A stretch of 38,148 bases of DNA from Anaerolineales bacterium. Its GTDB lineage: Bacteria > Chloroflexota > Anaerolineae > Anaerolineales > UBA11579. The stretch lies in NCBI GenBank assembly GCA_025450445.1, contig JANWHN010000026.1:1-38148 (forward strand), given 5' to 3'. The stretch's first letter is position 1. Each line of letters starts with the position of its first letter. This document shows positions 12,814-16,363 of the stretch, one piece after another. The translations under genes and the position numbers were made by a program. Under the pieces are notes generated by a model. It was not told the origin of the DNA and made no database searches. It saw nothing but the letters and a program-made list of their open reading frames with translations.

Positions 12814-14259
12814 TTATGGAAACAATTGTGGGTACATAGCGGCTAGCGCCGGCACGGCGCCCAGAAAGAAGCGCGAAAGCAACCCAAATCCTACAAAGCT
12901 TACGACCGCGATGCCCAAGAAAGCCCAGTTGATCGGATTCTTTATGTCTAGGATCTCGATCTTGCTGGTCGCGACCTCGTCTCCAAAATTCTTGGTAGCC
13001 TGAGCCCCACGTTGAGTAAAAAATACGAATAGCAGTCGCGCTCCCGTGGCCAGCAATCCGAGGCTCCCTGTTAAAGAAGCAATGGCTGCCCAAGAGGAAA
13101 ATTGGGCAAGCCCACTCCAAACAGCCAGGTGGGCTGGAAAGCTGGAGAGCAACGGCAATCCTGCAATGGCGAAAATCGACAAGACCATCACCGAAAAGAA
13201 GAAGGGGTGCGATCTAAATATGGACTTGACTTCATCCAGATCATGCTGGCCTTTAGTTAGGGACCAAAATGTCCCCAACACAACAGCCCAGATCCACATA
13301 GCGAGAGTATTAGGCAAGAGGAGAGCAAAAAATGCTTGGACCGATTCACCACCGGCCAGACCGATAGCCTGCAGATTTGTGCCGATTACAACCATGGCTC
13401 CGTAAGCGAAGATGCGCCCCAAATGACGCTGACCCGCCGCCCATAACCCCGCAAGCAGCACGGCCAAGCTTCCAGCAACGAGAAGAAGCTCATACACGAA
13501 AGCGTTATCACGCAGCCAGACGTAGCGATCCAGGAAACTCAATCCGAACAAAGTTGCGATCGAGGGAAGGAACGAAATAAGGAAGCCGAAAACATAAGGA
13601 TGCGCATCTTCGGCGAGCATCGGGATCCACGAATGCAAAGGGAATAAACCAAGAATAAAAGTAAAGCCAAGCGCGAGCAAAACCCCGGAACGCAGAGCCA
13701 AGTTCACGTTACCCGGGCTAGCTTCGACGCCGGTCAGCAGCCATCCAGTAAACAAGACGAATGGAACTGCTAATGCCTGGAAGGTGAGGAAGCGCATAAC
13801 TCCCGCGGTGGGAACTTTCCCAGGCGGGGCAAACAAAGGAACCGAAATCAGAATAACCATGCCGATGATCAGGGCCGCGTAAAGAAACGGATCGACAGCC
13901 AGTGCTGCAACAAACAAACTCACCATGATGAAGCTTAATGGGATAAACAGCCTGTTCGGGCGCACGATCACAGTTCCAAACAGCCACAGGGTTTGCATTA
14001 CGTAGATGAAAGTGAGCAACGGCTTATCGAAACTATCGAGGGTGAAATTGCGACCGAACAGAACAAGACTCGGGGCTATTTCAAGTGAGACGGGGCCCAG
14101 AGTGAGGACAACGTCGATCGGCAATTGCCAAGCAGCCCAGACGAGGAACACCGACGCGCCAATCGCAATGAGGAAAGTTGCGCGGGGACTCATCCGAAAC
14201 ACTAAAAGCAAAATGCCAACCGCAGCTGGCAGGATGATCCACAGATGGGTGGAGCTCAC
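12814..14259 (-). CDS. Complex I / Hyf / Mrp antiporter-like subunit (NuoN/HyfF-like)
   Basis: 481 aa, about 14 hydrophobic segments; [23 protein letters not shown] resembles the Proton_antipo_M PLHxWLPxA region. Confidence 0.7.
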   Translation of the reverse strand: [481 protein letters not shown]

Positions 14260-14849
14260 GAGCGCGGCTCCATTCCGGGCGCCAGGATCAGATAAGTTCC
14301 GATAAGCGCGATACCCAGGTTCACCACGGCCAGCAAGCCGACCACAAGGATGGAAGCTTCCACCGCGGCATAAAGGATCTCGAAACCCGAAAAGAATGTA
14401 AGAATACCAATCACGGTCCGGAAATAACTCGAGCTAAACCCGATCTGCAACAACCCGATACCGAGTAGCAAAAGGCTGGCAGCCGCCTGGCTCTCGCCTA
14501 TAGCGGGGTTCCACCCGGCCAAGCGTGGGGCAGCTCCGAGGACCACCAAAATGATCAGCCCGGCAGAGATCGAGCGAAAAGCGCCGCTGCCCTGCCAGGT
14601 TTGCGACCCCAGGCTTGGCTGTTGCGGCACAGACAGAATCGTGAATCCCAAGATCGCGGCTGCCATCCAGCCCGACACAAGTTTGACCGCGGCTAGTTCC
14701 AGGGGCCATGACGAAGTGGTCAGCAGGAAGGCCCAGAGATATTGCAAACCCAGGGCAGCAATTACGGAACGCCAATCGCGACCTACCAGGACGGCGATGG
14801 CCGTGATCGCGGTCAAAATAACTATTACAAGACCGAGCGCGCCTTCCAT
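14256..14849 (-). CDS. HyfE/NuoK-like membrane subunit
   Basis: About 197 aa from ATG 14849 (ATGA overlap with upstream stop); C-terminal GFEILYAAVEASILVVGLLAVVNLGIALIG resembles NuoK/HyfE. Confidence 0.6.
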   Translation of the reverse strand: MEGALGLVIVILTAITAIAVLVGRDWRSVIAALGLQYLWAFLLTTSSWPLELAAVKLVSGWMAAAILGFTILSVPQQPSLGSQTWQGSGAFRSISAGLIILVVLGAAPRLAGWNPAIGESQAAASLLLLGIGLLQIGFSSSYFRTVIGILTFFSGFEILYAAVEASILVVGLLAVVNLGIALIGTYLILAPGMEPRS

Positions 14850-16363
14850 CAGGCTCCGAGTCCGACCTGCGCGACAACGGAGAGCAATAGTGCGATCAGG
14901 AGCAAAGCCCACAGGATGCCCGCTGGTCCTTCGAGAATTCCGCTGACAAACGCAAGCGCCGCGGTGAGACCCGCAAATCCGCGTCTACCAACACTGTTTA
15001 GCCAGCTAAGCGACAGCACAGATTCAAGAGCCGCAACCACCGGGCCGGGCACGTGGATGCGAAGCGCAAAAAAGCCGAAGATCGCAACGAGAGCCACGAG
15101 GATCGCGCCCCACCACCAAGCAAAAGCGAAATCATCGGAAGGAAAGGATGGCGCCGCGCCGACGCCAAAGATAACAAAAACAATCGGCAGGGAGACCGTG
15201 CCAATTAATTGAACAGTACGCGTCCAAGATTCCGCTGGGCGCTCATGAACCTTTGAAACGGCCGCCCTTCGAGCCCAGCCCAGCAAAAGCAAACCGTGGA
15301 TTGGAAGGAAGGCGTAGGCAACGAAAGAACCTGGGTTGGTGTAAAAATCTGACGCGGGAAAACTGGCTGTAAAAGGCAGCCCGCTCAAAAGAAGCGTCCC
15401 AACAATCGCGCCAACGAAGCCAAATTGTTTGCCGACGAATGTTTGCACAGCGTGTAGGAGTGCCTCGCCAAAAAGCAGGATCAATCCAAATACCATGACC
15501 GATAACACAGAACCTTGCGCCGCGGCAGCCACGGCAAGAGTTCCAAATCCCGAGGTCCAATACCCGCCTGCATCATCTTTGGCGTTTAAGAGTTTCCAAG
15601 CAGCATAGGTTGCCGGTAACAAGAGGAAAAGTTGGGCCGCGACCAATGCTGGGGGCGACATCGGCTGGGTGCGAGTCAGGAGCGCCAGCGCGGAGGCTAA
15701 TGGCGCAAGTCGAAACAAATCCGACATCGCGCTCTTCGAAACATTCAGTTGCGGGCGAAGCACCAGGCCGAGGCGCAAACCCGCCGCGATCAGCGTCAGC
15801 CCAGCAATCGCGTCACCTTCGAAATCAGGAAGCGCCCAAGCCCCGATCAACAACATGTTTCCAACCAAGTTGGCGATGAGGCGAACGGCTGCCTCGCGAC
15901 CCTGCTGCCAGTCACCAGAATCGCTGACAACCAAAACAAACAACACTAGATCCAGCAGTGTTAAGGTGAAGGCAAAGGCGAGCAGATCGCCAGAAAAGAC
16001 TGCAAACAGTACAGCTGCCGTTAAAGCCAATCCCCTGGCCCAGAGGGCCCAATTTGCAGTCATCGCTTGGCTAACCTCGGAGAGAAGCGAGGAAAATAGC
16101 AGCGCCGTAACCGAAAACGCCAGGATCCAGGAAGCCGGATCCAAAAGAAGAGGTGCGCTGAACTCCACACTTTCGCCCACCCACCAACTTTCAAACGAAA
16201 GCGAGACGGGCAACCGGAAACGTAGGAAGATCAAGGTCAACAAAGCCACTCCCGCTGTGCCAACCGCGACCAGCCAGCTTGAGCGCATTTGGCGCCGCAG
16301 GTTGCTGAATATCAACGTGAACAGTCCAGCTATAAGGACAAGAAGTGGTAACAAAAGGAGCAT
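14849..16363 (-). CDS. Complex I / Hyf antiporter-like subunit (NuoL/HyfB-like, divergent)
   Basis: 504 aa polytopic; position in a three-gene membrane cluster and TM pattern; canonical motifs poorly conserved. Confidence 0.6.
   Translation of the reverse strand: MLLLLPLLVLIAGLFTLIFSNLRRQMRSSWLVAVGTAGVALLTLIFLRFRLPVSLSFESWWVGESVEFSAPLLLDPASWILAFSVTALLFSSLLSEVSQAMTANWALWARGLALTAAVLFAVFSGDLLAFAFTLTLLDLVLFVLVVSDSGDWQQGREAAVRLIANLVGNMLLIGAWALPDFEGDAIAGLTLIAAGLRLGLVLRPQLNVSKSAMSDLFRLAPLASALALLTRTQPMSPPALVAAQLFLLLPATYAAWKLLNAKDDAGGYWTSGFGTLAVAAAAQGSVLSVMVFGLILLFGEALLHAVQTFVGKQFGFVGAIVGTLLLSGLPFTASFPASDFYTNPGSFVAYAFLPIHGLLLLGWARRAAVSKVHERPAESWTRTVQLIGTVSLPIVFVIFGVGAAPSFPSDDFAFAWWWGAILVALVAIFGFFALRIHVPGPVVAALESVLSLSWLNSVGRRGFAGLTAALAFVSGILEGPAGILWALLLIALLLSVVAQVGLGA

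Follow-up and report, generated by a model that had tools for sequence, protein, structure and literature searches.

What is the role of a pair of antiporter-like membrane subunits when neither a redox enzyme nor the usual proton-transfer residues accompany them? Proton pumping by complex I is usually explained by a Glu-Lys switch together with the TM12 lysine of its antiporter-like subunits. Nature offers an experiment on the role of the fold in a conserved set of such subunits, which has these residues replaced and persists in cells that lack complex I. The locus analyzed here, from an Anaerolineales bacterium, raises this question within a series found in a single phylum, which runs from D-L-K-N gene clusters and an L protein with canonical residues to a trio that has neither.

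The three genes and their products

Three open reading frames, termed L, K and N, occupy positions 12814-16363 on the minus strand of the window (the whole stretch of DNA that was analyzed, 38,148 nucleotides; Table 1). The L/K junction is TGATG, with one base in common, and the K/N junction is GTGA, with four; the four-base overlap recurs in 30 of the 35 loci measured. As a preliminary description of the sequence had stated, no gene for NuoH, a hydrogenase, an NADH-oxidising subunit or MrpEFG is adjacent to the trio in the window. The upstream side holds genes for dihydropyrimidinase, PLP enzymes and carbamate kinase, with ParA/ParB on the other side, and SelB follows in 26 loci and not in the window. 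We rejected an assignment of function from these neighbors, since part of the order has the trio without the upstream genes and ParA/ParB. A search of a defence-system library gave no match for L, K or N, and weak coiled-coil matches only for the coiled-coil gene downstream of N.

Table 1. Coordinates of the genes and key residues in the window.
Feature	Position	Strand	Description	Evidence
L subunit, 504 aa	14849..16363	-	Very divergent NuoL/MrpA-type 14-TM antiporter-like protein, TM7 and TM12 broken	hhalign, AF2, PDB fold match, order-wide occurrence
K subunit, 197 aa (ATG start at 14849)	14256..14849	-	7 TM helices	AF2 pLDDT 92.8
N subunit, 481 aa, GTG start	12814..14259	-	NuoN/MrpD-like	PF00361 E 1.4e-14; profile to NuoN 3rko E 2.4e-27
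Coiled-coil protein, 388 aa	11619..12785	-	Downstream of N; association with the trio possible
L R197	15773..15775	-	TM7 lysine position	Arg in 44/45 Anaerolineales
L D138	15950..15952	-	Acid one turn past the lost TM5 Glu	43/45
L S338	15350..15352	-	TM12 lysine position	Alignment with canonical subunits
K K56	14682..14684	-	Conserved membrane lysine	Weak match aligns K56 with MbhD glutamate (6cfw_D)
K E157	14379..14381	-	Within GFE motif	Glu predominates within Anaerolineales, Asp outside
N I202	13654..13656	-	TM7 lysine position	Lys in 0/48 of family; position aliphatic
N G133	13861..13863	-	TM5 Glu position	Glu in 28/48 of family
N H377	13129..13131	-	TM12 Lys position	Arg 28, Lys 7, His 7 of 48

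The N protein exceeds the cut-off of the Pfam family Proton_antipo_M (PF00361), and its nearest kin are NuoN/Mbs/MrpD-type subunits (E 5e-16 with the NuoN model). Its best match among solved structures is 6u8y, a Pyrococcus Mbs complex. The L protein alone matches no family model in Pfam or NCBIfam, and one of the 38 L family members reaches PF00361 (E 3e-4). When the L family profile was compared with that of canonical antiporter subunits, hhalign returned a probability of 97.6% (E 3.4e-12, 413 columns), and the AlphaFold2 model of L (pLDDT 89.7) matched E. coli NuoL in the PDB (E 7e-11 to 2e-10, probability 1.00, TM-score up to 0.72). The model has the 14-TM fold of the PF00361 superfamily with its broken TM7 and TM12, formed by helices 183-197/212-229 and 315-326/335-342, respectively. 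These results bear out the earlier view of the module as NuoL-like and NuoN-like.

The middle protein had been called HyfE/NuoK-like, a label that draws on its size, its place in the gene order and its GFE motif and that found no significant support in searches by sequence or fold. Comparison of K with HyfE, NuoK and MrpC by hhalign gave at most 2.7% (HyfE, 2.7%), which is not significant; K has no Pfam or NCBIfam family, and its confident seven-helix AlphaFold2 model found no significant match in the PDB. There are weak matches of the first half of K to the MbhD/DUF4040 region and of the second half to NuoK/MrpC/HyfE-like helices. We take these as a lead only, namely that K may be a composite of a NuoJ-like/MbhD-like N-terminal half and a NuoK/MrpC-like C-terminal half. 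K56 and E164 are conserved at 92% and 94%, and K56, E157 and E164 are present in most members.

Replacement of the channel residues

LysTM7, LysTM12 and GluTM5 have been described as the conserved, essential core of every antiporter-like subunit (PMC7419157). We took a census of these positions after aligning the L and N families jointly with 16 canonical subunits; among the latter, the TM5 Glu was present in 16 of 16 and the TM7 Lys in 15 of 16. Neither L nor N carries the set of TM5 Glu, TM7 Lys and TM12 Lys/Glu that characterizes the PF00361 superfamily. Among 45 Anaerolineales L sequences, the TM5 Glu was found in none, 43 had an Asp at the +3 position, and 44 had an Arg in place of the TM7 Lys. 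No TM12 Lys was seen in these 45 sequences in the joint alignment, in which the TM12 residue mapping of L, resting on alignments of ~18% identity, is the least certain part. D138 and R197 of L would be expected to form a locked charge pair.

The N family comprised 48 members after one paralogue had been taken out. The Lys equivalent to NuoN K295 is almost gone across this family. The TM12 position is basic in 42 of the 48, and R70, R156, R282 and R408 are conserved charged residues. The mapping of TM7, TM8 and TM12 in the PDB alignment of N with NuoN agrees with the joint alignment. An apparent N with a TM7 Lys at one locus (L046) was rejected, as it is a neighboring paralogue at the same locus and not the N of the module.

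The canonical TM7 Lys is missing from both proteins, as the preliminary description had read by eye: R197 takes its place in L, within the quoted sequence GLRLGLVLRPQ, and I202 in N. The suggestion that the channel residues are degenerate was right in that they are non-canonical, but the replacements are not random, since the Asp and Arg of L are fixed and the trio is found order-wide. Judged from the alignments, the residue change is a fixed family trait rather than random degeneration. No alignment recovered a full set of channel residues in the proteins of the window, and the trio was not found to belong to a characterized family.

Conservation of the trio and its presence without complex I

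The phylum sample consisted of 301 genomes, and the searches covered Chloroflexota and one narrow scan. L and K were each found in 24 of the 24 other Anaerolineales genomes in this sample, and N had hits in 56 of 61 relatives, although a few of these hits were weak or at background level. Most Anaerolineales loci keep the order L-K-N with the coiled-coil gene behind it, and N has no internal stops. The occurrence of the same gene set, in order, across dozens of genomes places the trio far beyond chance. Beyond the order, K was found in 12 of 13 genomes from the rest of Anaerolineae and in 30 genomes from other classes. Four genomes of other Anaerolineae orders (G208, G336, G262 and G329) have retained all three genes even though L is not located beside the K-N pair, which suggests a joint function; this is the best evidence for it that is independent of linkage. 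The distribution suggests that a very common group of bacteria has a core membrane complex that annotation has missed. The loss of channel residues might suggest a pseudogene or decaying remnant, but the open frames, the tight synteny in dozens of species, the complete occurrence in the order sample and the fixed replacement residues make this hardly credible, and we consider it refuted by the order-wide conservation.

The trio is carried by three genomes that are nearly complete, G060 (a single contig, 99% complete), G343 (95%) and G192 (99%). They contained no PF00346 (NuoD), no NuoH over the cut-off and no MbhD, and N was their sole PF00361 protein. The same searches for NuoD, NuoH, MbhD and PF00361 were positive in most control genomes. 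Since no NuoD, NuoH, MbhD or other antiporter-type protein is found in these three genomes, the trio is independent there of complex I, group 4 hydrogenase and Mrp. A DAC/DIC (DabA-DabB) inorganic carbon pump was rejected as well, because the DabA partner (PF10070) was absent from all ten genomes checked.

The trio had been described as an orphan, which is the case in Anaerolineae but not in other Chloroflexota. In seven loci read from the latter (L142-L146, L149 and L152), a gene of ~370 aa, termed D, lies directly upstream of L. The five D proteins tested matched Complex1_49kDa (E 6e-48 to 1e-26), and some also weakly matched the [NiFe] hydrogenase family. Both CxxC pairs of D are intact in loci L143 and L152; in most of the remaining loci, the first pair has been changed or is missing. 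The D-L-K-N loci that were read showed neither a small subunit nor NuoH. Furthermore, some relatives outside Anaerolineae retain canonical channel residues; in G077, L keeps the TM5 Glu, TM7 Lys and TM12 Lys, and the flanking genes are unrelated. The genome description of Chloroflexus aurantiacus, in the excerpt consulted, lists two complex I clusters and no D-L-K-N cluster (PMC3150298). The outgroup states, in the sequences compared, suggest a likely direction of change, in which Anaerolineae lost both D and the switch residues from a D-L-K-N or related complex.

The D gene also bears on the possibility that the trio serves as the membrane arm of a redox enzyme that has so far escaped recognition, an Ehr-like or hydrogenase-like complex with its cytoplasmic part encoded elsewhere. 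Such an enzyme would be in keeping with the NuoD/[NiFe]-large-subunit-like gene that precedes L outside Anaerolineae, and with D matches above 360 bits in 30 sampled genomes. However, none of these 30 is from Anaerolineae, no Anaerolineae genome of the sample has D above 290 bits, and the window's genome has NuoD-type matches only, at no more than 185 bits. Given also the three genomes above, and the D-L-K-N loci that show neither a small subunit nor NuoH, we regard this explanation as unlikely. Because of G060, G343 and G192, the new respiratory partner proposed in the preliminary description is disfavored, at least one of the NuoD or hydrogenase type.

A proposed stand-alone complex and its relation to known systems

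The explanation that we favor, with about even confidence, is that the trio makes up a membrane complex of its own, formerly the arm of a redox enzyme, which would now carry out gradient-driven ion transfer through a rewired pathway. The three proteins would bind one another as a membrane complex that originated from the antiporter-like arm of complex I or of a group-4-hydrogenase-type enzyme, and the Anaerolineae version would have lost its NuoD-like redox partner and would operate without electron transfer. The Glu(TM5)-Lys(TM7) switch of L would have been swapped for the conserved Asp and Arg. Because this pair is expected to be locked and the TM12 lysine is gone, L is probably the non-pumping, structural half. 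On the K-N side, a shortened polar path could be formed by the TM12 Arg/His/Lys and R282 of N and by K56, E157 and E164 of K, along which protons or cations would follow gradients that other pumps maintain, or be exchanged against them. Isolated NuoL/NuoM-type subunits are able to conduct protons (PMC11496545), which makes a redox-free function plausible. The Arg-Asp pair and the hydrophobic TM7/TM8 positions argue against canonical proton transfer, and the trio probably has a different, ion-related job. Further points against this explanation are that a pure scaffold would give equal conservation and that K is not tied to NuoJ, NuoK or HyfE with significance. It is also possible that a non-homologous partner is encoded elsewhere.

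Ranked close behind is an inert membrane scaffold, which we consider possible though doubtful, in which the fold organizes the membrane or anchors a further protein, such as the coiled-coil protein encoded downstream, and no ions are moved. This would account for the channel residues of TM5, TM7, TM8 and TM12, which L has replaced and N has replaced for the most part, and for the coiled-coil gene that follows N in most Anaerolineales loci. However, charged residues are conserved inside both K and N. Moreover, the coiled-coil gene lies away from the trio in other Anaerolineae, and nearly every genome from other classes lacks it, K-bearing ones included. Since it adjoins the trio in Anaerolineales only, its product is no more than a possible fourth subunit. 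In two loci with L homologues (L122 and L123), the adjacent coiled-coil protein is a different one, so that these do not represent the same pair. Both a repurposed scaffold and a non-canonical ion pathway had been put forward in the preliminary description, and both are still viable, since no redox subunit lies beside the trio and its residues are non-canonical.

We put forward more tentatively a broader claim, that the trio is a redox-free relative of complex I, core to Anaerolineales, in which the Glu-Lys switch would have become a fixed Asp-Arg arrangement and the fold would have taken on a new function, either another ion path or a mechanical or scaffold role. Within the one phylum, a graded series would then lead from members that have canonical residues or a NuoD-like partner to those that lack both. 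In the literature searched, which is not the whole literature, no description was found of a stand-alone, switch-less trio with order-wide conservation.

Among known systems, the Mrp (Mnh/Pha) antiporter resembles the trio in the order of a large antiporter-like, a small multi-helix and a second antiporter-like subunit (MrpA-MrpC-MrpD), with N matching MrpD and L matching the MrpA/NuoL branch. An ordinary minimal Mrp-type cation/H+ antiporter working by the usual mechanism would show just such an order, yet it is very improbable here. The TM5 Glu, TM7 Lys and TM12 Lys, essential in the superfamily (PMC7419157), are replaced; MrpB, E, F and G are not adjacent, so that the MrpA-G set is incomplete at the locus; L, at 504 aa, is too short for the C-terminal domains of MrpA; and a separate MrpA with an MbhD domain coexists with the trio in same-genus genomes.

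The membrane arm of complex I (NuoL, NuoK, NuoN) is alike in the fold of L and the sequence of N. In contrast to complex I, the trio lacks NuoH, J, M and A as well as a peripheral arm alongside, the core of NuoB, C, D, H and I is not found at the locus, and the trio occurs in genomes that lack complex I. The HyfD-HyfE-HyfF arm of group 4 [NiFe] hydrogenase and FHL-2 likewise consists of an antiporter, a HyfE-sized protein of ~200 aa and an antiporter, and outside Anaerolineae a NuoD/[NiFe]-large-subunit-like gene adjoins L. However, the Anaerolineae trio has no hydrogenase subunit, its K-HyfE match is not significant, and the in-cluster NuoD/[NiFe]-type large subunit of group 4 hydrogenases and Ehr is absent in Anaerolineales. 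Ehr complexes, which include Mbx/Mbs, provide the best solved match of N (6u8y), and the outgroup D proteins have in part lost the metal-binding CxxC, as Ehr complexes lack Ni/Fe ligands (PMC6349859). Unlike Ehr, the Anaerolineae loci have no D, and even the D-bearing loci show no small subunit or NuoH. The parts of the trio are of a known kind, that of the complex I, Mrp and hydrogenase superfamily.

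Genes flanking the module in the window

A codirectional gene run lies immediately upstream of the gene for L, the divergent NuoL-type protein, from which it is separated by a gap of 3 bp. It encodes a dihydropyrimidinase, two PLP enzymes, a carbamate kinase, a glycosyltransferase and an unassigned protein family of 194 aa, and looks like a pyrimidine/hydantoin degradation operon. The opposite strand carries genes for ParA and ParB at a short distance from the module, and since the same pairing recurs in several relatives, the module may be located near the chromosome origin.

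The coiled-coil protein, whose C-terminal region around W305-W316 is highly conserved, was present in nearly all Anaerolineae sampled, whereas the rest of the phylum lacks it almost entirely. In many Anaerolineales its gene is followed by a SelB-type (selenocysteine elongation factor) gene, assigned by eye; the window has no SelB-type gene at the corresponding place.

Related genes outside the module

The complex I cluster of the window's genome (G000, contig C81) contains two NuoM-type genes, and the TM7 region of the second product, GFAVLGGIFPF, is without the TM7 lysine. In some other Anaerolineae orders, a solitary L homologue is found distant from K-N, the genes for the seven-helix and NuoN/MrpD-like proteins.

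Coordinates of flanking and related features
Feature	Locus	Position	Strand	Remark
Upstream run	window	16367-23164	-	
Coiled-coil protein, 388 aa	window	11619-12785	-	
ParA and ParB	window	8362-10005	+	
SelB-type gene	L053	12483-14378	+	same arrangement at 25 other loci
Second NuoM-type gene, 492 aa	L081	ORF start 11548	+	contig C81
Solitary L homologue	L121	9200-10816	+	other Anaerolineae order
Solitary L homologue	L122	8910-10538	+	other Anaerolineae order
D-L-K-N	L152	7629-12873	-	other Chloroflexota class
D-L-K-N	L143	7663-12751	-	other Chloroflexota class
D-L-K-N	L142, L144, L145, L146, L149			other Chloroflexota classes

Four-gene clusters outside Anaerolineae

In these D-L-K-N clusters, D is a NuoD/[NiFe]-large-subunit-like protein, its first CxxC intact at some loci and changed at others. 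Neither a small subunit nor NuoH was seen near D in the loci read. The cluster possibly represents a minimal Ehr-like complex.
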